A DNA stretch of 64,000 bases from Actinopolymorpha singaporensis (lineage in GTDB: Bacteria > Actinomycetota > Actinomycetes > Propionibacteriales > Actinopolymorphaceae), in the NCBI RefSeq assembly GCF_900104745.1, contig NZ_LT629732.1:5319981-5383980 (forward strand). The letters are read 5' to 3'. Every line of letters begins with the position of its first letter. Positions within the stretch are counted from its first letter, which is position 1. A program made the translations under genes and the position numbers. Below, one piece after another: positions 37,772 to 49,652 of this stretch. The notes under the pieces are model-generated. The model was not told where the DNA came from. It ran no database searches and saw only the letters and a program-made list of their open reading frames with translations.

Positions 37772-38299
37772 CGGCACCTTCTCGACCGGAGGCTGGGGGT
37801 CGCCCGCCGGCACGGGGTCGCCGACCGGAGGCTGGGGGTCGCCCGCCGGCACGGGGTCGCCCGCCGGCTCGAGGTCGCCCGCCGGCACGGAGCAGGTCGG
37901 GGGCTCGGCCGGCCCCAGAAGCGGTCGCGGCCCGACCCCCACCGTCCGCCCCGCCTCGATCTCGTCCTTGAGCGCGAACATCGCCGACTTCACCGCAACG
38001 GCGAACTCCCGCCGCACCCGCGCCAGCCGCCGCCCGGGCAACTGCCCGCGTGCCGGATCGACCCGCAGGAACACGTGCACGACGGTGCCGTCCCGACAGG
38101 GCTCCAGCCACAGTTCGGCGGTGCCGGTGAACTCGCCCCGGACGTACCACCGCATCCCCTCAGCGCCCCGGTCGTGGTACGGGTCGAGCCGCACCGACGG
38201 CCAGCAGGCACGCCAGAACTCCGCAGCTGTCAGCCGCCGCGCCAGGCGTGCCGGCTCGGCCACGACGAACGTGTCGTCGGCAAGGTCGACCAGGGACAT
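37643..38299 (-). CDS. SRPBCC-family protein with repetitive proline-rich tail
   Basis: 218 residues from ATG 38299, coupled by a TGATG junction to the upstream glycosyltransferase stop. The helix-grip domain covers about 1-130 (ARLARRLTAAEFWRACWPSV, MRWYVRGEFTGTAELWLEP, FAVAVKSAMFALKDEIEAGR). The rest is a Gly/Asp/Pro tail with a duplicated 13-residue block, and the final 43 codons are antisense to udgX. The domain is clearly real; whether translation runs through the whole overlap is less sure. Confidence 0.72.
   Translation of the reverse strand: MSLVDLADDTFVVAEPARLARRLTAAEFWRACWPSVRLDPYHDRGAEGMRWYVRGEFTGTAELWLEPCRDGTVVHVFLRVDPARGQLPGRRLARVRREFAVAVKSAMFALKDEIEAGRTVGVGPRPLLGPAEPPTCSVPAGDLEPAGDPVPAGDPQPPVGDPVPAGDPQPPVEKVPSGELAGDDPKVVDQPGVHVVTVAGAQDRRRVDGRDDGGPGAR
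37784..37861. repeat. Perfect 39-bp tandem duplication
   Basis: Two identical 39-bp units (37784-37822, 37823-37861) encode the repeated Pro/Gly/Asp block of the SRPBCC tail; a partial third copy follows. It begins 13 bp after the udgX stop. Confidence 0.9.
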
Positions 38300-39444
38300 C
38301 AGGCACCTGCGCCGGGGTAACCCAGCAGACCGCGCAGCCGCGCCACCGACGCGTCCCACGTCCAGCACTCCCGCACCCACGCACGACCCCGCTCACCCAT
38401 CGCGCGCGCGGCGACCGGGTCGCCGAGCAGCGTGACGACCTTCGCCGCCACCGCCACCGGGTTGTACGGATCCACGACGTAACCGGTCTCCCCGTGGCGT
38501 ACGGCGTCCGGAGCACCGCCGGAGTCGCCGACGACCACCGGCAGGCCGCTCGCCTGCGCCTCCAGGAACACGATCCCGAGCCCCTCCGGCTCCAGGCCGG
38601 CCAGGCGGGTGCGGCAGGGCATCGCGAACACGTCGCCGGCGTCGAAGTACGGCGGGATGTCGATCCACGGCACCGCACCCGCGAAGACGACGTTCTCGCG
38701 TACGCCGGCCTCCTCGGCCAGCCGCTCCAGGTCGCCGCGGTAGGGACCGTCGCCGACGACCAGCAGCGTCGCCCCCGGCACCTCGCGCAGCACGTGTGGC
38801 CAGGCCGTGATCAACGTGTCCTGGCCCTTGCGCTCGGTGAGTCGCGCCACACACACCACGACCGGCCGGTCGGCGGGAAGGCCCAGCCGCTTGCGGACCA
38901 CCTCCCCGCCGGTGCCCGGCCGGAACGTCTCCGTGTCCACCCCCGGAGTGAGTCGGGTCATCCGGGCCGCGTCCTCGGGGGCGAGCCCGCGCGCCAGCAC
39001 CGAGCGGGTGTACTCCCCCAGGTAGGTGAGGGAGTCGGTGGAACGCCCGATCCGGCGGAACAGCCCGCGCGGCCCCGGCACCCTCGCCCACCACGTCTCG
39101 TGGCCGTGGGTCAGCCCCACGATCCGCTTCGCCCCGGCCCGGCGCAGCGTCGGCGCGAGCAGGCCGAGCGGCGCGGCGGCGCCGAACAGCACCCGGTCGC
39201 AGCCTTCCGAACGCAGCACCCGGGTCGTACGCCGGGCAAGTCCCGGTGTCGGCAGCAGCGTCGAGGTGCGGTCGCGGATCACCGGGAACGGCAGAGTCGC
39301 GTCGTACTCCCTGCCACCGGCCATCGACGCGGTGTAGACCACCACCTCCGACGGCGGCATCCGCTGGCACAGGGCGAGCACGAACGCCTCGATACCTCCC
39401 TGCCGGGTCGGGAAGTCGTTCGTCACCACCAGAGTGCGGGCCAC
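38299..39444 (-). CDS. GT4-family glycosyltransferase, PimB-like mannosyltransferase
   Basis: 381 residues, GT-B fold. The acceptor-side domain starts TLVVTNDFPTRQGGIEAFV with the GG loop. The donor domain has VARLTERKGQDTLI near 200 and the EX7E motif in LEPEGLGIVFLEAQASG near 290. The sequence strongly resembles actinobacterial PimB', which adds the second mannose to phosphatidylinositol mannoside at the inner membrane face. Given the inositol locus nearby this is attractive, but sugar and acceptor are inferred. It couples to the SRPBCC gene downstream. Confidence 0.85.
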   Translation of the reverse strand: MARTLVVTNDFPTRQGGIEAFVLALCQRMPPSEVVVYTASMAGGREYDATLPFPVIRDRTSTLLPTPGLARRTTRVLRSEGCDRVLFGAAAPLGLLAPTLRRAGAKRIVGLTHGHETWWARVPGPRGLFRRIGRSTDSLTYLGEYTRSVLARGLAPEDAARMTRLTPGVDTETFRPGTGGEVVRKRLGLPADRPVVVCVARLTERKGQDTLITAWPHVLREVPGATLLVVGDGPYRGDLERLAEEAGVRENVVFAGAVPWIDIPPYFDAGDVFAMPCRTRLAGLEPEGLGIVFLEAQASGLPVVVGDSGGAPDAVRHGETGYVVDPYNPVAVAAKVVTLLGDPVAARAMGERGRAWVRECWTWDASVARLRGLLGYPGAGA

Positions 39445-39538
39445 GGGGACCGACCCTATCCGGCACCCGGGCGGCGGCCGGTACTCACTCGGCGCTCACC
39501 CGCTGGTCTCTCGGTTGGCCGTCGGTCGTCATCGATGG

Positions 39539-41029
39539 TCACTCGGTGGTGGCCATCGCGGGCACGGCCGGCAGGCCGTGGCGCCGGGACCAGGACCGGA
39601 TCAGCGCGATCCGCTCCGGCGCGGTGGGGTGGGTGGCGTAGAACACGTACAGCACCGGCGCGGGAGTCAGGTCACTGCGGTTGGACACCGCGAGCCAGCG
39701 CTGCACCTCCGCGTACCCTCGCGGGTCCCGGGTCAGGTCGAGCGCGTGCACGTCCGCGCTGGCCTCTATCCGCCGGGAGATCGCGTTCTGCAGCGGCAGA
39801 CTGGCCTGTATGCCGATCGCGGTGAGGGCGATGACGAGCGCCACCACCCTCGGGTCTGCGGCCGACCCGACCCCGGCCCGTCGGCGCAGCCGGGCCGAGT
39901 CCAGCAACAGCGCGAGTGCGACCATCCCGCACGCCACCCCGACCGCGCCCACCACGGTTCCGCGCAGTACGTCGTTGTGCTTGGCGTGCCCGAGTTCGTG
40001 CGCGACGATCAGCCGCACCTGGTCCGGCGTGGCGTCCGCCAGCAGCGTGTCGTACACCACGATCCGGCGGGTGGAGCCGAACCCCGAGACGTAGGCGTTG
40101 AGCCGGGTGGTGCGCCGGGACTCGTCGGCGACCAGGACGTCGTCCACGGGTACGTGGTCACGGGCGGCCAGGTCCAGCAGCGACGAGCGAAGCTGCCCGG
40201 GCGGCATGGGGGTGAAGTGGTTGTAGAGGGGTTCGACCAGGACGGGATAGACGAACGATCCCATCACCACCATCCCCGCACCGATCGCCGAGCCCAGCGC
40301 CCACCACCAGCGGGGAAACCTCCGGACCAGGGCCAGCATGCCGACCAGCAGCGCGGCGGTGACCGCGAACGTCAGCCCGGAGGCGATCGCGGTGTCCCCC
40401 GCCCAGCCGGCGAAGCTCTGCGTGGACACCCCGCTGTCCCGGCGAACGATCTCCAACCACAGGTCGAACGGCAGCACCAGGACCCGTATCGCCAGTGTCA
40501 CCGCGAACGTCCCCAGGAGCGCCCGGAGCCACCACCGTCGTACGCGGGGCAGCAGGGCGCCGGCGAGCCGGGCGCCGGTCCGGGTCAGGCCGAGCCATGC
40601 CGAGACCACCAGCCCGGCCGCTCCGGTGAGGTACGCGGGTGCGCGCACCAGCTGCTGGAACGCCACGCTGCTGGCGATCTCGGCCTTGTCGAAGTCCTCG
40701 GTCAGCGGCGCGGTCGACGTCGGCAGCAGGGCACTCGTACGAGCCCACGGGCTCCACGGAGTGGTGATCAGGACCAGCAGGACGAGTCCGGCCAGCAGTG
40801 CCACCAGCACGGCCGTCGCCGACCGTCTGTCAATCCCGGGTTGACATCCTGGCCGGTCTTCGGGCCGACACTCCGGTCGACGTTTCGGTCGGCGCCCCGG
40901 TGGGCGTTCCGGGTGAAAACCGTCCGCCTGGTGACGCGCGGCACGTCGGCCGCGCCCGATCTCTCGTGGGTGTACGGAATCCGGCCTGGGCACGGAATCC
41001 CGTAGCCGCACGCTCCCCCGTCGACGCAC
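39539..41029 (-). CDS. M48-family (Ste24/HtpX-like) membrane metallopeptidase
   Basis: 496 residues as read from ATG 41029. Several membrane segments (about 72-90, 132-148, 168-190, 215-235, 245-265, 360-380, 390-405). The zinc site is HELGH (344-348) with the third ligand in RIEASADVHALD near 415. The first 68 residues are an Arg/Pro-rich repeat-like stretch without conservation, so the true start may be a GTG near 40815. CaaX-type or protein quality-control protease in the membrane. Confidence 0.85.
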   Translation of the reverse strand: MRRRGSVRLRDSVPRPDSVHPREIGRGRRAARHQADGFHPERPPGRRPKRRPECRPEDRPGCQPGIDRRSATAVLVALLAGLVLLVLITTPWSPWARTSALLPTSTAPLTEDFDKAEIASSVAFQQLVRAPAYLTGAAGLVVSAWLGLTRTGARLAGALLPRVRRWWLRALLGTFAVTLAIRVLVLPFDLWLEIVRRDSGVSTQSFAGWAGDTAIASGLTFAVTAALLVGMLALVRRFPRWWWALGSAIGAGMVVMGSFVYPVLVEPLYNHFTPMPPGQLRSSLLDLAARDHVPVDDVLVADESRRTTRLNAYVSGFGSTRRIVVYDTLLADATPDQVRLIVAHELGHAKHNDVLRGTVVGAVGVACGMVALALLLDSARLRRRAGVGSAADPRVVALVIALTAIGIQASLPLQNAISRRIEASADVHALDLTRDPRGYAEVQRWLAVSNRSDLTPAPVLYVFYATHPTAPERIALIRSWSRRHGLPAVPAMATTE

Positions 41030-41201
41030 GTTCCCCCCAACGCACGCTTCGAGCCCGGCCGGCTACGGCCCTACGGCCCGCGGTCTCGCCACAATCCTCA
41101 CCCCGTTGCCGTCGGTCCGCCGGTCAATCGGCCAGTCGGAAACCGCTCGGTCGCCAAACCAGTCCGTCTGTACGCCAGTCCGTCGTTCGTCGGTCGGTCG
41201 G

Positions 41202-42608
41202 TCAGTCGTCGCTGCGTTCGCGCACGTAGGCGCGCCAGCCCTGCACGAATCGCTCGGAGGAGGTGCCGAGGACGCGCCGATAGACGCGTTCCTGGTCGAC
41301 CTTGGTCCTGGCGCCGTCCATCGCGACGTAGAACCGCAGCAGCTTTGCCCGGTCCCAGCGTTGCGCGATGTAGCGGCACGCCGTCCACGCCGACTCGTAC
41401 GCCTCGTCGAGTGCCCTGGCCCGTGGGTCGAACTCCGTGCCCCCAGGCAGCGCGTCCGGAGGCCCCCGGCGGCGCACGTCGCTCAGGAACTCGTGAGCGA
41501 TCACCTCAGCCGGCAGCCCGGAGCGGTGGAAGCCCACGTAGTCGGCGAAGCCTTCCGAGAGCCACACCGGCATGCCGCTCACGGTGGCGTGTGCCGCGAC
41601 GTGAGTCGCCTCATGGGTCAGAACCACGAGCCGGCCGAGGCTGCCGATCCGGTCGAACGTGTGCGGGTTGACCACAATGTGCGAGGCGAGGGCCGGATCG
41701 GGCCGCCCGACGGAGGTCGTCACGGCCGCCACCGCGGTCTGGGTGTGTGAGCCGACCCCGATCAGTCGTTCCATCTGCGCCTGGCTGGGCGGCACCAGGA
41801 CGACGATGTACTGGTCCCAACTGCTCCCCCACACCTCCGACACCCGCCGTACGGCAAGATCGGCGGTTCGGGCGAAGCGGCGAAGCTGGTCCAGGTGGCC
41901 TGAGCCCGCCACCATGCTGTGCTCACCGTGGACGACCTCGATCCGTTCGGTCATCCACAGTGGCAGGGACGAATCGGTTCCCTGTCCTTCCCGGTCGCCG
42001 GCGACGTAGCCGACCCCGTCCCGGTCGACGAACGCCATCCGCAGCGTGGTCCTCCATGGCTGGGTGTCGCCGCTCGCGAGGCGGAAGGACAGTTCGACCG
42101 AGGCGACCCAGGCGGAGGGACCAAGCGCGGCCCGCCGGGCAGGAGTGAGCCCCCGCGAGTCGACGACCGGTGTGCCGAACCGCACCTGGCGCACCCGCAT
42201 CCGCTGCAGGTTGTCGAAGAGGTCGGCGGCTGTGGCGGCGTAGGAACCGGCCCGTGGATCGACCGTGGCGAGGTACGCGCGCCGGTCGTTCGCCCGGATC
42301 GCGGCGCTTTGGCGGGCGAGCAGTTCCCCGGCCACCGCGACACGCTGGGCAGTGAGGTGCCCACCCCGGGCGGCGACCGTGGGCCGGACCTCCGGGATGG
42401 AGCCGCCGGCCGGGTACGGGGCGCCGACGGAGTTCATCAGTGCGCCGGCCGCGGACGGAACGGCCGATCCGGTGGCCACTGCCACAGCGGACGCGAACGC
42501 TCCGGACACCAGCAGAACGCCGGCGACGAGAACGGCGAGGGCCTGCCCGACGAACCGTCGGCGCCGAGCGGCCCGACGGCGTACCCGCTGCGGAGAGTCG
42601 CCGATCAC
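41202..42608 (-). CDS. Peptidase MA-like secreted/anchored metallopeptidase
   Basis: 468 residues: a basic cytoplasmic N-terminus, one membrane anchor (about 22-47), an NTF2-like middle region (RQSAAIRANDRRAYLATVDPRA near 100-120; AFVDRDGVGYVAGD near 192) and a C-terminal gluzincin domain with HEATH (332-336) and LSEGFADYVGF, whose E352 is the third zinc ligand. Probably extracytoplasmic. It lies between M48 and NlpC/P60 genes of the same orientation. Substrate unknown. Confidence 0.8.
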   Translation of the reverse strand: MIGDSPQRVRRRAARRRRFVGQALAVLVAGVLLVSGAFASAVAVATGSAVPSAAGALMNSVGAPYPAGGSIPEVRPTVAARGGHLTAQRVAVAGELLARQSAAIRANDRRAYLATVDPRAGSYAATAADLFDNLQRMRVRQVRFGTPVVDSRGLTPARRAALGPSAWVASVELSFRLASGDTQPWRTTLRMAFVDRDGVGYVAGDREGQGTDSSLPLWMTERIEVVHGEHSMVAGSGHLDQLRRFARTADLAVRRVSEVWGSSWDQYIVVLVPPSQAQMERLIGVGSHTQTAVAAVTTSVGRPDPALASHIVVNPHTFDRIGSLGRLVVLTHEATHVAAHATVSGMPVWLSEGFADYVGFHRSGLPAEVIAHEFLSDVRRRGPPDALPGGTEFDPRARALDEAYESAWTACRYIAQRWDRAKLLRFYVAMDGARTKVDQERVYRRVLGTSSERFVQGWRAYVRERSDD

Positions 42609-42630
42609 ACCCGCATCGTACGGAAAATGG

Positions 42631-42666
42631 TCGCCGCCTATCCTGCTGAACGAGGAGAGGCGGCGA
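42631..42666 (-). terminator. Hairpin after the NlpC/P60 gene
   Basis: Nine-base arms TCGCCGCCT and AGGCGGCGA with an 18-nt loop, 38 bp past the NlpC/P60 stop. Confidence 0.5.
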
Positions 42667-42704
42667 GTGAACAGCTTTGGGCCGGCAGGAAACAGTGTGG
42701 GAGC

Positions 42705-43736
42705 TTATCCGGGCCGCACGGCGCCGGCGTACGGCATGTAGCGCATCGGGAGGTATTCGACGCCCTTGCCGGGGCGGGGAGCGTGGATGACCATGCCGTT
42801 TCCGGCGTACAGGCCCACGTGGTGCCGGTCGGAGTAGAAGAGCACCAGGTCACCGGGCTGCAGCTGCGAACGGGACACCTTGGCCGACATGGCGTACTGC
42901 GACCTGGAGGAGTGCGGAAGGGACACCCCCGCCTGCCGCCAGGCCATCATCGTCAGACCGGAACAGTCCCAACTGCTCGGGCCCGCGGCGCCGAAGACGT
43001 AGGGCTCTCCCAACTGGGCACGGGCGAATGCGAGGGCGGTGGCGCCCCGGCCGCTGCCGGACGGAAGCGGAACGCGCTCCTGGCTGCGGGAGGACCGCTG
43101 TGCGGCCTGCTCGCGGGCCTGGTCGGCAGCCTGCACCCGGCGCCGCTCGGCGGCGGTGAGCCGGTCGAGGACGGCCTTGGCCTTGGCGACGTTGGCGTCG
43201 GCCTGCTTTTTGCGGGCCTTCGCGGCGTCGCGGGCCTCGCGAAGGCGGGTCAGCTCCGCCTGACGGGCCGCCTTCTGCTCCGACAGGCGCTTCTGCTCCG
43301 ACTGCAGCTGCTTGAGGAGATCGTCCTGCTGGCCCGCGAACGCCTGCGCGGTGCTCATCTGGGCGATGTATTCCTTCGGATCCTGGGCGACCAGGAGCTG
43401 CACCGTGCTGTCGACGGCACCCGCACGGTATTCGGTGGCGGCGAACTGGCCGATCTGGCCACGCAGCGAGTCCAGGCGCTTCTGCTGCCGGGCCACGTCC
43501 ACGTCGAGCTTGCCGACGCGGCGGTCGATTACCTTCGTCTGGTCGTTCAGCTCGTTGGCCTGCTCGGCGGCCTTCTCCGCCTGCGCGTAGAGGTCGTCGA
43601 CCTGCTTGCGAACCTGGCCGATGTCGCGGCGGGGCTCGGCGTAACTGGCCCCGGGGACCGCGGCGATGAGCGCGACAGTGGCGGTGCCGACGGCGAGCAG
43701 CGCGCGCCCGGATGGGCAGGTGCGGCGGTTGGACAT
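42705..43736 (-). CDS. NlpC/P60 peptidoglycan endopeptidase with coiled-coil domain (RipA/RpfI-like)
   Basis: 343 residues. A signal peptide (about 1-33) leads to a long coiled coil (about 36-215; DDLYAQAEKAAEQANELND, LQSEQKRLSEQKAARQ), then a short linker and an NlpC/P60 domain with catalytic C258 (WDCSGLT), H306 (DRHHVGLY) and H318 (VIHAPR). It cuts D-Glu/diaminopimelate stem-peptide bonds during wall growth; the coiled coil usually keeps such enzymes inactive until removed. Its leader carries a c-di-AMP riboswitch and a good promoter. Confidence 0.93.
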   Translation of the reverse strand: MSNRRTCPSGRALLAVGTATVALIAAVPGASYAEPRRDIGQVRKQVDDLYAQAEKAAEQANELNDQTKVIDRRVGKLDVDVARQQKRLDSLRGQIGQFAATEYRAGAVDSTVQLLVAQDPKEYIAQMSTAQAFAGQQDDLLKQLQSEQKRLSEQKAARQAELTRLREARDAAKARKKQADANVAKAKAVLDRLTAAERRRVQAADQAREQAAQRSSRSQERVPLPSGSGRGATALAFARAQLGEPYVFGAAGPSSWDCSGLTMMAWRQAGVSLPHSSRSQYAMSAKVSRSQLQPGDLVLFYSDRHHVGLYAGNGMVIHAPRPGKGVEYLPMRYMPYAGAVRPG

Positions 43737-43759
43737 CGGGCGGTGAGCCCCTTCTCCTA

Positions 43760-43909
43760 GACGCCTACCGGGTCAGCTGACGGGTTCGGGCCGGGAAGCC
43801 GCCCTACGGTGGTCCAGCCGGTCCAACGTGACCGCCAGGGCCGCCGATTCACCCCGGGAAACCTGGGTCCCCGGCTCTCCTCCGGTTTGGCCGGCGGAGA
43901 CTAAGCGGG
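43760..43909 (-). ncRNA. c-di-AMP (ydaO-yuaA) riboswitch
   Basis: Read on the minus strand, the leader contains the family's conserved blocks in order: CGCTTAG, GGAGAGCCGGGGACCCA, CCGGGGTGAATC, a variable arm, TAGGGCGGC, then GCCCGAACCCGTCAGCTG and ACCCGGTAGGCG. These closely match ydaO-yuaA elements known upstream of actinobacterial wall hydrolase genes, where c-di-AMP binding turns expression off. The element ends 23 bp before the gene and the ribosome site GGAGAAGGGG follows it. Confidence 0.92.
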
Positions 43910-43961
43910 TGCCCGCGTCGGCCGGGTGGCCGACTTACGCAGAACGGACACTTCGGGCGGC

Positions 43962-43990
43962 ACTGTAGTGATCGCGCCCGAGGCTTTCAA
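43962..43990 (-). promoter_or_regulatory. Predicted promoter of the riboswitch-NlpC/P60 transcript
   Basis: Minus-strand -35 TTGAAA (43990-43985) and -10 TACAGT (43967-43962) are separated by exactly 17 bp. Transcription would begin near 43955, about 45 nt before the riboswitch. Confidence 0.65.
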
Positions 43991-44116
43991 ATCCGACAGG
44001 CCCGTTGCGGAGGAGTCCACGGAAATCAGGGCACCGCGTTACCGGTCACGCCGACACGCGACAGCCGCCGATCCTGGCGATTTCCACACTCTTCGCTCCC
44101 GGCCACGTCCGGACCG

Positions 44117-44458
44117 TCACCGCGCGGCCTTCATCCCGTCCCGGTGTGGTGCCTCCGGCTCCGCCAGCCACGGCGGGTGCTCCGGTGACCAGAGGCCGGA
44201 TTCGGCCAGCACCCGGAGGGCCTTCCGGTCCGCCTCGTCGAGCTCGAACCCCACCTCGCCGAACTCCGGCGGGGCGACTCCCGACGCCTCCAGCCACGCA
44301 GCGTCGACCGCGACCGGCTCCACCTGCGCCGGCGCCGGCCCGACGGGCTCGACGCCCACGGGCTCGATCGACGCGGGTGGCGCACCGAGAACGACCGCGA
44401 CCACGCAGTCCTCGCAGTGTCGCTTCCGCACTGCGCAGCGATCGCACTGGATCCGCAT
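44117..44458 (-). CDS. Small conserved actinobacterial protein with four-cysteine N-terminal motif
   Basis: 113 residues from ATG 44458 (GGAGGG upstream). The start MRIQCDRCAVRKRHCEDC holds four cysteines spaced C-x2-C-x6-C-x2-C, suitable for zinc. A proline/valine-rich linker follows, and a C-terminal stretch DEADRKALRVLAESGLWSPEHP looks like a short conserved helix. Function unknown. Gene neighbourhood (NlpC/P60, NYN protein) gives no clear role. Confidence 0.65.
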   Translation of the reverse strand: MRIQCDRCAVRKRHCEDCVVAVVLGAPPASIEPVGVEPVGPAPAQVEPVAVDAAWLEASGVAPPEFGEVGFELDEADRKALRVLAESGLWSPEHPPWLAEPEAPHRDGMKAAR

Positions 44459-44588
44459 GCTGCCCTCCGTCCGTCTCCCCGGCGTCCGTGCGCCCGGCAC
44501 CTGGTGGCGCCTGTCTCGCGTCCGGACTCGCCGTTGCCGGAAACGTTAGACACGACCACCGACAGTGCCCTCGGACCAGCACGTGACC

Positions 44589-44648
44589 GGCGTCCGGACC
44601 GGCGTCCGGACCTGCGTCCGGACCGGCGTCCGGACCTGCGTCCGGACC
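44589..44648. repeat. Five 12-bp tandem repeats
   Basis: GGCGTCCGGACC alternates with TGCGTCCGGACC without gaps in the space between the NYN-protein gene's stop and the small Cys protein's start. Each unit contains the palindrome GTCCGGAC, so the array has five evenly spaced dyads. Two AGACCCGAACC units follow. Confidence 0.9.
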
Positions 44649-44693
44649 AGACCCGAACCAGACCCGAACCAGGTCCCCTGGGCGGTACCACGG

Positions 44694-46016
44694 TCAGCGC
44701 GCGAGCAGGCGCACCAACGCGTCGGAGGCGACCGGACGCGCGCCGGAGCGGCGTACCCCGTCCACGATCTCCCGATCGCTCGACACGACCACGACAGGAC
44801 GCCCCTCGGGCTCGGCCGCCACCAGCTGGCGGATCACGTCGTCGGCGCTGATCCCGGCCGGGCTGAACCGGACCCGCACGCCTCTCGGCGTGTTCAGCGG
44901 CGGCGGCACGGCGAGCTTCGCCCCGTCGAAGACGCAGGTCACCTCGGCGCCGGTGCGGGCCGCCACGCCGCCGAGCGCGGTCACCAACCGGGTCCGCTGG
45001 GTCTCCAGCGGAAGAGTCGGCCAGGCCGTCTTGGTCACGTTGTAACCGTCCACGACCAGATGGACCTGGGGCACGGTGAGCAAGGTCTCGAGCGGTACGA
45101 CGCCCTCCGGACCGGACGGGAGGCCGCCGACCGCCGCCTCCCTGGCCGGCACCGAGTCGGCCGGACGCGACTGCGTGGGCGGCAGTGCGAGCTCGCGGCG
45201 CAAACCCTGTGCGGCGTCGACCAGCGTGTCCAGCAGCAACCGCAGCCGGACGCTGGCCAGGTCCCGGCCCTCCCGTGCGGACCGGCGGCTGAGCTCGATC
45301 GCGGCCTCCGCGTCCGCGATGCGGGTCCGCAGGCGGCGCAGCTCGGCGTCCGCCCGGGCGGTGTCGGCCGCCGCCTCCTCCCGGGCGCGGGCGGCCAGCT
45401 CAGCCTGCCGGGCCGCCTCTTCCTCGGCAGCCCGCGCGCGCTCGCGCGCCTGGCGCAGCGTGCGCCGCAGGGTGGCGTTCTCCTCCTTCAGCGCGGCGAG
45501 CTCGTGCCGGCGCCGGTCGCGTTCCTGGCGTACTCCGGCACGCGCCTCCGCCACCTGCTCCCGCAACCGGGTCAGCGACTCCGATTCCCGCTCCCCGGCC
45601 AGCGAGGCGGTCTCGCGCTCGAGCTGGTCGAGCACCTCACCGACCACGTCCTCCCAGCCCACCGGCCGCAGGACGTACGCCGTGGCTGCCACGTCCATCG
45701 GATCGACCGCGGACGGCCGGCGCCCCTCGGCCACCGCGGCGGCGAGGTCGGGCACCAGGGTCCGGATGCGATCGGCCACCCGGGCACGGAACTCGGCGTC
45801 GGCGTCGACCGCGGCCGCGATGGGGACGGCCGCCAGCCGGGCGCGGCGGCCCGGAGCGAAGCGAGCGAACGGCCGGAGAGCGGAGGGCACCTCGTCGGCG
45901 GTCAGCTCACCGAGGGTGTCGGAGGCCATCCCGACGACCCGCTGGCGGACCGGCTCGGGCAGCGGTCGGCCCAGGTCGTCGGGCCGGTCCGGCGAGGCCG
46001 CTGCTCCGTTGCTCAC
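44694..46016 (-). CDS. NYN-domain (YacP-like) RNA-binding/nuclease protein
   Basis: 440 residues from GTG 46016. The N-terminal region (1-120) is helical and conserved in actinobacteria (LPEPVRQRVVGMASDTLGEL). A long coiled coil spans about 125-235 (ESLTRLREQVAEARAGVRQERDR region). A C-terminal PIN-like NYN domain (about 275-440) has VHLVVDGYNVTKTAW, CVFDGAKL and VVVSSDREIVDG, supplying the acidic residues of an RNase site. Probably acts on RNA in the cytoplasm. Confidence 0.82.
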   Translation of the reverse strand: MSNGAAASPDRPDDLGRPLPEPVRQRVVGMASDTLGELTADEVPSALRPFARFAPGRRARLAAVPIAAAVDADAEFRARVADRIRTLVPDLAAAVAEGRRPSAVDPMDVAATAYVLRPVGWEDVVGEVLDQLERETASLAGERESESLTRLREQVAEARAGVRQERDRRRHELAALKEENATLRRTLRQARERARAAEEEAARQAELAARAREEAAADTARADAELRRLRTRIADAEAAIELSRRSAREGRDLASVRLRLLLDTLVDAAQGLRRELALPPTQSRPADSVPAREAAVGGLPSGPEGVVPLETLLTVPQVHLVVDGYNVTKTAWPTLPLETQRTRLVTALGGVAARTGAEVTCVFDGAKLAVPPPLNTPRGVRVRFSPAGISADDVIRQLVAAEPEGRPVVVVSSDREIVDGVRRSGARPVASDALVRLLAR

Positions 46017-46103
46017 GGCTGCGAGCGTATCGGCGCGCCCGCCTACTCGGGCCCGAGTCCCGGCTCGGCCGGCGGCCGGAGCAGGTCGGGCAGAATGCCC
46101 GGC

Positions 46104-46844
46104 ATGCGACAGCTGCCGCACGGTTACACCAACCGCACCGTCGGCGACGGTTCGGTGGTGGTGAAGGAGTACGCCGGGCCGGACGCCCGGGACCGGCAGC
46201 GCCGCGAGCACCTTGTACTCGACCGGCTGGCCGGCGCGGTTCCGCTGCCGCAGTTGGTCGCCGCAGGCGGTCTCCGGCTGACGACCGGCTTCGTCGGCGG
46301 GGCGCACGGCCAGGATCTCCTCGCGCCGGAGGAGTCACCGGCCCGGGCCGCCGCCGTGCTCGCCGCCTGCGGGCGCACCCTGCGCGAGATCCACACGCTC
46401 GACCCGGCACGACTGTCCGACCTCCCGCCCCTGCCGGACACAGCGGTGACCGTTCCGCAGGCGCCCGGCGGGACAGGCGGGACGGCCGGCGGCCACACCG
46501 TCCCGGTACACGGCGACTACGGGCCGAACAACCTGCTCCTCGACCCCGCCGACCACACCGTCACCGCGGTCTTCGACTGGGAGTTCGCCCATCTCGGTTC
46601 CGCGGTCGAGGACCTGGCCTGGTGCGAGTGGATCGTCCGAACCCACCATCCCGACCGCACACCGCTGCTGGGCGAGTTCTTCGGGGCGTACGGCGGCCCG
46701 GCCCCCGGCTGGCCGACCCGGCGGGCGGTGATGGTCGCGCGGTGTCGCGCCCTGGAGGCGTTCTGCACCCGGTGGGAACCCGGCGGCGAGGGCGCTCGGC
46801 AGTGGGCCCGGCGCGCGGCCGCGACCGCGGCCTGGCGGGAGTGA
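46104..46844 (+). CDS. Aminoglycoside-phosphotransferase-fold kinase
   Basis: 246 residues from ATG 46104 (an in-frame ATG at 46095 is equally possible). Kinase-like fold: VVVKEYAGPDAR carries the ATP-binding lysine near residue 20, the Brenner motif VHGDYGPNNLLLD near 138 has the catalytic aspartate, and TAVFDWEFAHLG the metal-binding one. The protein is shorter than true resistance enzymes and probably phosphorylates a small metabolite. An upstream extension of the open frame is antisense to the NYN gene and not coding. Confidence 0.75.
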   Translation: MRQLPHGYTNRTVGDGSVVVKEYAGPDARDRQRREHLVLDRLAGAVPLPQLVAAGGLRLTTGFVGGAHGQDLLAPEESPARAAAVLAACGRTLREIHTLDPARLSDLPPLPDTAVTVPQAPGGTGGTAGGHTVPVHGDYGPNNLLLDPADHTVTAVFDWEFAHLGSAVEDLAWCEWIVRTHHPDRTPLLGEFFGAYGGPAPGWPTRRAVMVARCRALEAFCTRWEPGGEGARQWARRAAATAAWRE

Positions 46845-46957
46845 GACCGGAACCGACCGGGACCGAGGTGGGGAGGAAGCCAGGAGCGGGCGACGAGCAG
46901 GCGCCCACGGCGAGGTGGCGCGGTGCGCCGGGCCGAAGCGTGGTTAACTTCGCCAGC

Positions 46958-47719
46958 GTGACGACGAAGGACCGCGAGAACCTGCTCTACCAGCTGCGGT
47001 ACGCCATGCGAAACCCGGCGAAAGTACCCCCTTACGCCCGGCGGCTCGCCCGGGACACGGTGCTGCGCCTGCGCAACCGCGACCACGTGGACTACTACCG
47101 GGCGGTGATGAAGTCCGACGCGTCCCGCAGTGCCGAGGCCGCGGTGGGCAGCAAGTCGCACGCGCGGTGGCTGGCGCTGGGCCGGATGCAGTTCGACTAC
47201 CTCGTCGAGCACGGCCTGCAGCCGAGCGACCGGATGCTGGAGATCGGCTGCGGAAACCTGCGCGCCGGCCGGCTGTTCATCGACTATCTCGACTCCGGCA
47301 ACTACTACGGGATCGACATCTCCCCCGACATCCTGATCGCCGCCCAGCGAACGCTGGTCGAGGACGGCCTGCAGGCCAAGCTCCCGCACCTCACGCCGGT
47401 GCGCGACCTGAAGTTCGAGTTCCTGCCGGACGCCTACTTCAACGTCGTGCACGCACACAGCGTCTTCTCCCACTCCCCGCTTCCGGTGATCGAGGAGTGT
47501 TTCGCCCACGTGGGCCGCGTTCTGGCACCGCGCGGGTTCTTCGACTTCACCTTCGACCGCACCGAGGGGCGGGAGCACCAGGTGCTGCGCGAGGACTTCT
47601 ACTACCGCACCGAGACGCTGCTGAAGCTGGCCCAGCGGCACGGCCTGCGCGGGCGGTTCATGGCCGACTGGGAGAAGCGGCCGCACGGCCAGTCAAAGAT
47701 CCGGCTCGGTCACGCCTGA
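46958..47719 (+). CDS. Class I SAM-dependent methyltransferase
   Basis: 253 residues from GTG 46958 (GTG 46940 is an alternative). Residues 1-70 are basic and helical, then the Rossmann core: MLEIGCGNLRAGRLF (motif I, near 90), YYGIDISPDILIAAQ (acidic loop), FNVVHAHSVFSH and VLAPRGFFDFTF. The substrate is not recognisable. A strong terminator starts 2 bp after the stop. Confidence 0.8.
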   Translation: MTTKDRENLLYQLRYAMRNPAKVPPYARRLARDTVLRLRNRDHVDYYRAVMKSDASRSAEAAVGSKSHARWLALGRMQFDYLVEHGLQPSDRMLEIGCGNLRAGRLFIDYLDSGNYYGIDISPDILIAAQRTLVEDGLQAKLPHLTPVRDLKFEFLPDAYFNVVHAHSVFSHSPLPVIEECFAHVGRVLAPRGFFDFTFDRTEGREHQVLREDFYYRTETLLKLAQRHGLRGRFMADWEKRPHGQSKIRLGHA

Positions 47720-47721
47720 CC

Positions 47722-47755
47722 TTCCGTGCCGGCGAACCTCGAGGCCGGCACGGAA
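47722..47755 (+). terminator. Strong intrinsic-terminator-like hairpin
   Basis: Perfect 12-bp arms TTCCGTGCCGGC and GCCGGCACGGAA with a 10-nt loop, immediately after the methyltransferase stop codon. Confidence 0.8.
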
Positions 47756-47882
47756 CCCCCGCCCACCCCCGGTGGCCCCGCACCGCGGCCCAGCCCGCAC
47801 CGCCCGGTTCCCCTCGGCGATGAGCGGACCGGGCGCGCTTCGTTTCGTCCGGTTGTCGGTGGCCGCCCGTAGCGTCTGGCCC

Positions 47883-49652
47883 ATGACCGTCGCGGAACCT
47901 TCCCTGCCCGTCCAGGCGAGCTTCGACGAGCTCGGCACCCCGTTGCGGGAGGTGACCTTCTGTGTGGTCGACCTGGAGACCACCGGGGGTTCGCCGCAGC
48001 AGGCGGGGATCACCGAGATCGGCGCGGTGAAGGTCCGGGCGGGCGAGGTGCTCGGGGAGTTCCAGACGCTCGTCAACCCGGGTGCGGCCATCCCGCCGTT
48101 CATCGCCGTTCTCACCGGCATCACCGACTCGATGGTGGCCTCCGCCCCGACGCTCGGCGCCGCGCTGCCGGCGTTCCTGGAGTTCGCGCACGGCTGTGTG
48201 CTGGTAGCCCACAACGCACCGTTCGACGTGGGGTTCCTGCGGGCCGCCGCGCAGGAGCACGGCCGGCCCTGGCCGTCGTTCGAGGTCCTGGACACCGCGC
48301 GCCTGGCGCGGCGGGTGCTCACCCGCGACGACGCGCCCAACTGCAAGCTCGCCACCCTGGCCCGCTTCTTCCGCTCCGGCACCGTTCCCCAGCACCGCGC
48401 GCTCGGCGACGCCCGGGCGACGGTCGACGTGCTGCACGGGCTGTTCGAACGCCTCGGCCCGCTGGGCGTGCACTCGCTGGAGGAGCTGGCCGCCTTCAGC
48501 TCGCGGGTCTCCCCCGCCCAGCGCCGCAAGCGCCACCTCGCCGACCAGTTGCCCCACGCGCCGGGGGTCTACGTCTTCACCGACGACCGCGGCCGGGTGC
48601 TCTACGTCGGCAAGTCCAAGGACCTCCGCACCCGGGTGCGCACCTACTTCACCGCCTCGGAGACCCGCTCGCGGATGGGCGAGATGGTGACCCTCGCCGC
48701 GAAGGTGACCGGTATCGAGTGCGCCACCCCGTTGGAGGCGGAGGTACGCGAGCTGCGTCTGATCGCCGCGCACAAGCCGAGGTACAACCGGCGTTCGCGG
48801 TTTCCCGAGCGCGCGACCTGGCTCAAGGTCACCGTGGAGCCGTTCCCGCGGCTGTCACTGGTCCGTGAGGTGAAGGCCGACGCGGCGACCTACCTCGGCC
48901 CGTTCGGCTCGCGGCGGGTGGCCGAGCGGGCCGTCGCCGCGATCCACGAGGCGTTTCCCATCCGGCAGTGCACCCAGCGGCTCTCCCGCAGCCCGCGCTC
49001 GGGCTCGGCCTGCGTGCTGGCGGAGATGGACCGGTGCGTGGCGCCGTGCGTCGGTGCGGTCGACGTACAGACGTACGCCACGCATGTCGACGCCATCCGG
49101 CATGCCGTCGCCGCCGACCCCACCCCGGTGATCGAGGCGGCCACCCGCCGGATCGGCCGGCTGGTGGTGGAGTCGAGGTTCGAGGAGGCGAGTGTCCATC
49201 GCGACCGGATGGCCGCATTCGTACGCGCCGCGGCGCGCTTCCAGCGGATGAGCGCGCTGGCTCGCTGTCCGGAGCTGGTCGCCGCGAAGCGCACCGAGGA
49301 GGGTGGCTGGGAGGCGCACGTCGTGCGGTACGGCCGACTGGCCGCTGCCGGCGTCGTTCCCCGCGGCGCGCCCGCGCGCGCCGGGGTGGACGAGATCGTC
49401 GCCACCGCTGAGACGGTCGAGCCACCACCTCCGCCGACGCCGGCCGCGACCGCCGAGGAGACCGAGCGGATCCTCGCCTGGCTTGAGCAGCCGGGCGTAC
49501 GCCTGGTCGAGCTCGCCGGCGAGTGGAGCTGCCCGGTCGGCGGCGCACAGGCCCACACCGAGTGGCTGGACACCGCGTACGCCGCCCGCGACGACGTCGT
49601 ACCCTGCCAGGACCGCAGGCGCCTGCGGCCGACCCACCGGCCGGCCCGATGA
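47883..49652 (+). CDS. DEDD exonuclease fused to UvrC-like GIY-YIG endonuclease
   Basis: 589 residues joining two repair activities. The DnaQ/epsilon-like 3'-5' exonuclease occupies about 20-195: D30 and E32 (VVDLETTG), D115 (NAPFDVGF), H171 and D176 (HRALGDARATVD). A GIY-YIG domain (about 222-305) has GVYVF and VLYVGKSKDLRTRVRTY. UvrC-like sequence follows (YLGPFGSRRVAERAV, CTQRLSR, CVAPCVG near 395). The C-terminal UvrC RNase H domain is absent. Similar fusions occur in mycobacteria. Likely trims or incises damaged DNA. Confidence 0.92.
   Translation: MTVAEPSLPVQASFDELGTPLREVTFCVVDLETTGGSPQQAGITEIGAVKVRAGEVLGEFQTLVNPGAAIPPFIAVLTGITDSMVASAPTLGAALPAFLEFAHGCVLVAHNAPFDVGFLRAAAQEHGRPWPSFEVLDTARLARRVLTRDDAPNCKLATLARFFRSGTVPQHRALGDARATVDVLHGLFERLGPLGVHSLEELAAFSSRVSPAQRRKRHLADQLPHAPGVYVFTDDRGRVLYVGKSKDLRTRVRTYFTASETRSRMGEMVTLAAKVTGIECATPLEAEVRELRLIAAHKPRYNRRSRFPERATWLKVTVEPFPRLSLVREVKADAATYLGPFGSRRVAERAVAAIHEAFPIRQCTQRLSRSPRSGSACVLAEMDRCVAPCVGAVDVQTYATHVDAIRHAVAADPTPVIEAATRRIGRLVVESRFEEASVHRDRMAAFVRAAARFQRMSALARCPELVAAKRTEEGGWEAHVVRYGRLAAAGVVPRGAPARAGVDEIVATAETVEPPPPPTPAATAEETERILAWLEQPGVRLVELAGEWSCPVGGAQAHTEWLDTAYAARDDVVPCQDRRRLRPTHRPAR

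Follow-up and report, generated by a model that had tools for sequence, protein, structure and literature searches.

A c-di-AMP riboswitch ahead of an NlpC/P60 hydrolase gene in Actinopolymorpha singaporensis and a possible 5′ domain of actinomycete aptamers

The locus and its genomic setting

The window, that is, the whole 64-kb stretch of DNA analysed here, is part of one 6.40-Mb contig of A. singaporensis. A promoter, a c-di-AMP aptamer and an NlpC/P60 gene form one unit on its minus strand:

43990-43985, minus strand: −35 box TTGAAA (TTGANN in 16/16 family loci)
43967-43962, minus strand: −10 box TACAGT (TANNGT in 16/16 family loci)
43906-43747, minus strand: c-di-AMP (ydaO/yuaA) aptamer, RF00379 match (64.7 bits, cut-off 38, E 1e-12)
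43736-42705, minus strand: NlpC/P60 peptidoglycan hydrolase, RipC-like, 343 aa, ATG start (PF00877)

The c-di-AMP riboswitch is the sole gathering-level match in the whole window (cmscan, Rfam 15). The match is significant, spans model positions 1-134 of 134 and retains the core sequence blocks, which confirms the ydaO-yuaA riboswitch recognized in the leader by an earlier reading of the letters alone (the sequence-only reading). Besides RF00379, a permissive Rfam search of 42600-44400 returned three matches, all far under gathering scores.

The downstream protein, which the same reading had named an NlpC/P60 hydrolase, carries the NLPC_P60 domain (PF00877) at residues 243-332 (E 8.6e-24, 84 bits against a curated cut-off of 23), and its N-terminus resembles a signal peptide by eye. 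Among PDB entries, the protein is closest to 8idc_E (“Probable endopeptidase MT2245”; residues 225-332, E 2.1e-24), which we take to be RipC/Rv2190c; the two have the NlpC/P60 domain in common, whereas the N-terminal region of the hydrolase is only weakly similar. The NCBIfam RipC model (NF038345) scores 140 bits on residues 18-336, short of its cut-off of 425, and the protein is therefore called RipC-like only. The nearest named relative is an Actinopolymorpha rutila protein with 90% identity. Genes for an M48 peptidase, a GT4 glycosyltransferase and a YacP-like NYN protein, all on the minus strand, lie near the hydrolase gene within 38299-49652, as does a DEDD exonuclease/UvrC-like gene on the plus strand (47772-49652). 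On the 3′ side of the hydrolase gene, a 468-aa open reading frame (41202-42608, minus strand) has no family above cut-off; PF04450 (peptidase of plants and bacteria) matches it weakly, at E 0.0021 and under the cut-off.

The genome contains three RF00379 matches, namely the window copy and two loci termed L001 and L003. L001 (G000:C1:846405-846563, minus strand) precedes a paralogous NlpC/P60 gene and has its own promoter and its own copy of the 5′ hairpin P0 described below, and the L003 riboswitch precedes a gene classed as Rpf-like from its motif. Because a riboswitch precedes each of them, c-di-AMP control appears to extend to both NlpC/P60 hydrolases and to the Rpf-like protein. The diadenylate cyclase that the sequence-only reading expected in the genome was also found: the single DAC match is DisA, a 430-aa frame that scores 523.7 bits with the NCBIfam DisA model (cut-off 201) and also carries the DisA-linker and HhH domains. 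RF00379 is present in 6/6 genomes of the genus sample, 8/8 of the family, 44/57 of the order, 112/148 of the class and 22/119 of the phylum, in samples that overlap and all contain the source genome; the order, class and phylum samples were searched with stricter filters, which lose weak matches.

Aptamer helices, the loop-tail pseudoknot and the level of control

The comparison covered 158 loci, of which 137 were collected via RF00379 and 20 via the protein, the remaining one being a DAC locus. The RF00379 loci comprise all 25 genus and family places, 51 from the order (three sub-cut-off loci left out) and 61 from the class (picked for spread from a longer list that was itself capped); the genus labels used below (Nocardioides-like, Streptomyces-like and Kribbella-like) come from sequence and recall. 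The aptamer core occurs in 141 loci, that is, in all 137 RF00379 loci and 4/20 protein-derived ones, and the DAC locus is without it. The 3′ core divides these 141 loci into type A (79 loci, “CCGGUAGGCG”-like, the window included) and type B (62 loci). The target is an NlpC protein with the DCSG motif in 53/79 type A and 27/62 type B loci; by simple motifs, it is Rpf-like in 0/79 and 13/62 and M23-like in 11/79 and 3/62, and it is unclassified or cut short in 15/79 and 19/62, respectively. A sequence-guided MAFFT alignment of 13 Actinopolymorphaceae leaders (alignment A1), from which locus L006 and two near-duplicates were excluded, underlies P1 and P2 among the following elements of the window copy:

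43907-43904, minus strand: P1 5′ strand CGCU (family alignment)
43900-43876, minus strand: P2 hairpin UCUCC-G-CCGG/CCGG-A-GGAGA (A1 covariation)
43807-43787, minus strand: aptamer hairpin, the loop of which (CUUCCC, 43798-43793) is the pseudoknot 5′ strand (swap test)
43765-43762, minus strand: P1 3′ strand GGCG (family alignment)
43758-43748, minus strand: AGGAGAAGGGG, Shine-Dalgarno region and likely pseudoknot 3′ strand (by eye and swap test)
43738-43750, minus strand: possible small hairpin GGGC-UCACC-GCCC between the Shine-Dalgarno sequence and the start codon (by eye, from the sequence and A1)

Rfam sets the 5′ strand of P1 on CGCC 43896-43893, which sits within P2; judged by the alignment, RF00379 mis-registers P1 in the window copy, and the true pair is CGCU with GGCG as listed. 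Three of the four P1 pairs are invariant in 13/13 sequences, with 98.1% of cells paired, and the 4-bp window P1 includes one U-G pair. P2 shows two-sided changes in 6/9 pairs, with 93.2% of cells paired. The four-helix structure (P0, P1 and P2) has a covariation score of 0.412 against 0.236 in shuffled alignments (0/500 reach it) and of at most 0.123 after slides of one to three columns; here, as in the Nocardioides-like set below, the test structure was drawn from one alignment member, which gives that structure an advantage in the slide control, and kinship inflates the shuffle control. A plain MFE fold of the window leader contains P2 and the inner helix of P0 but lacks P1 and the outer P0 helix; it does not exceed shuffles in stability (z −0.53, 57/200 shuffles as good) and is uninformative.

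Two candidate elements were rejected. The sequence UCUCC 43900-43896 is not an anti-Shine-Dalgarno 5′ flank, because homologues show that it forms the 5′ half of P2. An anti-P1 strand further downstream (CGCC ahead of the start codon) is not a conserved element, since own partners pair no better than permuted ones in type A (−6.42 versus −6.54 kcal/mol) or type B (−3.79 versus −3.74); the type A value beats shuffles (−5.32), a difference that may be due to composition alone. Partner permutation thus detected no conserved P1 competitor across the type A and type B loci.

The loop-tail pseudoknot is a known element of ydaO aptamers. As read by eye, the window version joins UUCC 43797-43794 with GGAG 43757-43754 and is weak (about 4 bp, one of them a wobble). 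In our own reading of the sequence printed in PMC5393176, the crystal RNA contains a matching CUCCUUCG/CGAAGGAG pair. In a swap test, own partners scored −11.14 against −9.16 for permuted ones in 73 unique type A sequences (sd 0.25, z −7.8) and −11.19 against −9.98 in 53 unique type B sequences (sd 0.35, z −3.5), where the lowest of 5000 permutations (−11.42) was better than the own value; related sequences have both partners in common, which aids the test, and the 14-nt loop strings contain some stem letters, so that the absolute energies are too favourable. A narrower loop pattern, which missed 58/141 loci, gave z −5.4 (72 type A) and −2.3 (5 type B). Covariation in relatives thus supports the predicted pairing. 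The best Shine-Dalgarno stretch and the pseudoknot overlap in 47/73 type A and 52/53 type B sequences, counts that are uncalibrated against chance. The 26/73 type A exceptions include 11 Nocardioides-like sequences, in which loop GUCGU pairs with ACGAC ahead of the Shine-Dalgarno sequence, and 8 Streptomyces-like ones, in which the pseudoknot stops just short of it; because these 26 pseudoknots miss the Shine-Dalgarno stretch, its masking is not the whole story in those loci. The candidate hairpin at 43738-43750 has AGGC/GCCU or GGA/UCC variants in relatives (by eye) and could shorten an otherwise long spacer between the Shine-Dalgarno sequence and the start codon.

A Shine-Dalgarno-like tetramer follows P1 in 78/79 type A and 62/62 type B loci (median offsets 3 and 2 nt), and the median distance from P1 to the start codon is 26 nt in type A (73/79 loci) and 18 nt in type B (53/62), the start codons being longest-frame guesses and the remaining loci lacking a start 8 nt or more beyond P1. 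With the start codon this close, there is little room for a terminator, and no terminator-like site was found on the minus strand of 42000-44500. In a scan for anti-Shine-Dalgarno pairing, the pseudoknot loop alone stands out in type A (z −6.9, other readable regions −1.2 to +1.5; the P2-loop cell was dropped as an energy artefact, with a permuted sd of 122), and anti-Shine-Dalgarno pairing elsewhere in the type A leader was accordingly discarded. In type B, two regions stand out, namely the loop (z −4.2) and a 30-nt stretch from GGGGUGAA onwards (z −3.7), which partly overlaps the loop. Taken as a whole, the anatomy points to control of translation, not of termination.

The window leader very probably belongs to the ydaO class of c-di-AMP riboswitches and works as an OFF switch, most likely on translation of the RipC-like hydrolase. 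c-di-AMP made by DisA would bind the leader, whereupon P1 and the loop-tail pseudoknot would close; since the pseudoknot tail is the Shine-Dalgarno region, closure would mask that region and keep ribosomes off, and synthesis of the hydrolase would drop. When no ligand is bound, the short pseudoknot and P1, with its 4 bp, are expected to open. The c-di-AMP dependence, the OFF sign and the translational level are taken by analogy from nlpC of C. glutamicum, for which they are established in the available text of PMC9960051: control by c-di-AMP is OFF, and reporters indicate that it is exerted, most likely, on translation. A 2024 review likewise counts ydaO with the riboswitches in which the aptamer, once it has bound its ligand, docks on the RBS (PMC10907184, in the part available). 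Because both RBS docking and the C. glutamicum OFF switch are published, the mechanism that we infer for the window is not new in kind.

Alternatively, the same riboswitch may act mainly by stopping transcription through a non-canonical attenuation. Terminated transcripts of S. coelicolor rpfA were obtained in vitro with E. coli polymerase, and rpfA mRNA of S. venezuelae rose five-fold on loss of disA (both as told in the available parts of PMC9960051 and PMC10117811). However, the terminator search and the short distances to the start codon given above speak against this explanation, as do the constant level of C. glutamicum nlpC reporter mRNA whatever the c-di-AMP (PMC9960051) and the statement, in the available text of PMC8079986, that the S. 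coelicolor switch seems to work at translation initiation; control mainly at the level of transcription is thus improbable. It might also be supposed that the window riboswitch is decayed and its regulation lost, given the weakness of its pseudoknot and of its P1 with the U-G pair, but the core blocks are present at a covariance score of 64.7 bits, and P0, P1, P2 and the promoter are conserved across the family, which makes decay very improbable indeed.

The promoter, hairpin P0 and the flank-P2-loop pairing

TTGAAA-17-TACAGT (43990-43962, minus strand) is the single sigma-70-like site in 42000-44500, a region in which shuffles average 0.1. The TTGANN/TANNGT pair recurs in 16/16 Actinopolymorphaceae type A loci, of which two are near-duplicates; the boxes are 17-18 nt apart, and the distance to P1 is 52-57 nt. 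The promoter and its 17-bp spacing therefore stand as the sequence-only reading gave them, but its distance of about 45 nt to the riboswitch does not, because the −10 box of the window ends 54 nt before P1. A distance of 45-47 nt corresponds roughly to that from the likely transcription start to P1, and this gap is filled by a further hairpin; transcription probably starts just ahead of it:

43951-43909, minus strand: P0, 5′ hairpin directly upstream of P1 and outside the RF00379 model (A1 covariation), with outer helix GUGUCCG/CGGGCAC, 5′-side bulge 43944-43935, inner helix GUCGGCC/GGCCGAC and loop ACCC

The promoter spacer of two relatives (L005 and L011) contains GATCAC twice (e.g., GATCACGAAATGATCAC), and that of the window contains it once; the repeat is a possible candidate site for another regulator.

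In alignment A1, 5/7 pairs of the outer P0 helix are changed on both sides, with 100% of cells paired, and 1/7 pairs of the inner helix, with 98.9%. Similarly, the two helices are paired in 98.0% and 97.4% of cells in 11 Nocardioides-like leaders, where 6/16 pairs are changed on both sides; 11/500 shuffles reach that number, 170/500 reach the number of further pair types and 0/500 reach the covariation score. In 75 unique type A sequences, the 52 nt that precede P1 fold more stably than dinucleotide shuffles of them (mean z −2.23; 67 below −1 and none above 1), compared with −0.18 further upstream (n = 74) and −0.24 in a coding stretch (n = 75); in 58 unique type B sequences, the mean z of the same 52 nt is −0.98 (controls −0.26 and −0.45). 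The shape comprising an outer helix, a 5′-side bulge of at least 3 nt and an inner helix occurs in 59/75 unique type A leaders, as against 7.1% of 1500 shuffles and 10/75 coding stretches. It is found in 13/13 Actinopolymorphaceae, 11/11 Nocardioides-like and 13/13 Streptomyces-like sequences and in 22/38 other type A sequences (mean z of that group −1.90), 0-5 nt ahead of P1. The mere fact that a hairpin ends within 5 nt of P1 (74/75) was discarded as evidence, since 78% of shuffles do likewise. On this comparative evidence, P0 covaries and recurs in type A across the class Actinomycetes. By contrast, 16 riboswitches of other actinobacterial classes (19 taken, 3 unplaceable) show no excess stability at the P0 place (mean z +0.11). 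Seven riboswitches of these classes (L159-L163, L178 and L179) have a short P2 and no P0-like stability, and in some of them a hairpin-like repeat can be seen by eye soon past the aptamer.

P0 may be a constitutive helix that adjoins P1 on its 5′ face, probably stacking on the joint of P1 and the pseudoknot and steadying it. It is also conceivable, at somewhat less than an even chance, that P0 lies outside the switch, as a 5′-end stability hairpin or a site for another regulator that merely abuts the aptamer: it begins near the likely transcription start, and neither its bulge nor its loop found a tertiary partner in 14 swap tests on 59 sequences (most favourable z −1.8). On the other hand, a hairpin unrelated to the switch would have to account for the one shape kept at one distance from P1 in many genomes, for the lack of excess stability at this place in the other classes and for the use of the same place by type B aptamers for another pairing.

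In type B, the flank immediately 5′ of P1 pairs with the P2 loop, in place of P0. In 57 unique type B sequences, the duplex of flank and P2 loop scores −19.40 with own partners against −11.19 with permuted ones (sd 0.45), whereas type A shows no such signal (−13.20 versus −13.09, n = 75). Contiguous stems of at least 6 bp are formed in 53/57 type B sequences, compared with 41% of swaps, and stems of at least 7 bp in 43/57, compared with 17%. In 15 Kribbella-like sequences, a set from which a second group of genes of the genus was left out along with near-duplicates, 7/11 pairs are changed on both sides and 94.5% of cells are paired; the covariation score is reached by 0/500 shuffles and the number of further pair types by 52/500. 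The stem has 5-12 contiguous base pairs in the type B loci (e.g., L003:1501-1650, L021, L136, L144, L147 and L150), and L003, the rpf copy of the source genome, has five only. Together with P1 and P2, this pairing, which is missing from the RF00379 model, would make a pseudoknot through which the 5′ strand of P1 is threaded.

Known systems and the meaning of the 5′ element

The closest known counterpart is nlpC of C. glutamicum (cg2402), which, like the window unit, has a ydaO-class aptamer before an NlpC/P60 peptidase gene, a DisA cyclase and no canonical terminator; its operon also contains a glycosyltransferase gene, and a CTCC/RBS pseudoknot was raised by its authors as a possibility. Unlike the window with its P0, that account has no 5′ hairpin in the available text (all PMC9960051). 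Similarly, the leader of Streptomyces rpfA and other ydaO leaders resemble the window in being actinobacterial, in having wall hydrolase targets and in occurring several per genome, and rpfA differs in its Rpf target and in the transcription termination reported for it (available parts of PMC10117811 and PMC8079986). The RF00379 model (134 positions) has the same core as the window copy but neither P0 nor the flank-P2-loop pairing, and in the available part of PMC7657543 the family is classed as type 1 alone, “helix extended by additional covariations.” No description of P0 or of the flank-P2-loop pairing was found in the literature covered, including the available parts of PMC9960051, PMC10117811, PMC5393176, PMC7266159, PMC8079986, PMC7288161, PMC10907184, PMC7657543 and PMC9481103, a scope that excludes Nelson 2013, Block 2010, Jones 2014, Gao 2014, Ren 2014 and St-Onge 2017, where both may be in print. 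The riboswitch class, the target class and translational control are already published, and the novelty lies in the 5′ element alone.

It is tempting to propose, with a confidence that is evenly balanced, that c-di-AMP riboswitches of the class Actinomycetes have a 5′ domain outside the family model, present either as a bulged P0 directly next to P1 (type A, to which the window copy belongs) or as a flank-P2-loop pairing, mostly of 6-12 bp, that threads the 5′ strand of P1 (type B). The P0 form would be absent from the other actinobacterial classes sampled, and the domain would determine how tightly P1 and the pseudoknot shut over the RBS of wall hydrolase genes when ligand binds. If the type B structure is true, a riboswitch class that has been studied in depth would gain a second pseudoknot. 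A family model without the 5′ domain can misplace P1, and constructs that begin at P1, such as the crystal RNA in the available part of PMC5393176, omit the domain. It might also bear on the disagreement between termination in Streptomyces and translation in Corynebacterium. For the lineage of A. singaporensis, the unit predicts that c-di-AMP, a signal linked with osmotic and wall stress, lowers a wall-cutting enzyme, as it does in Corynebacterium.
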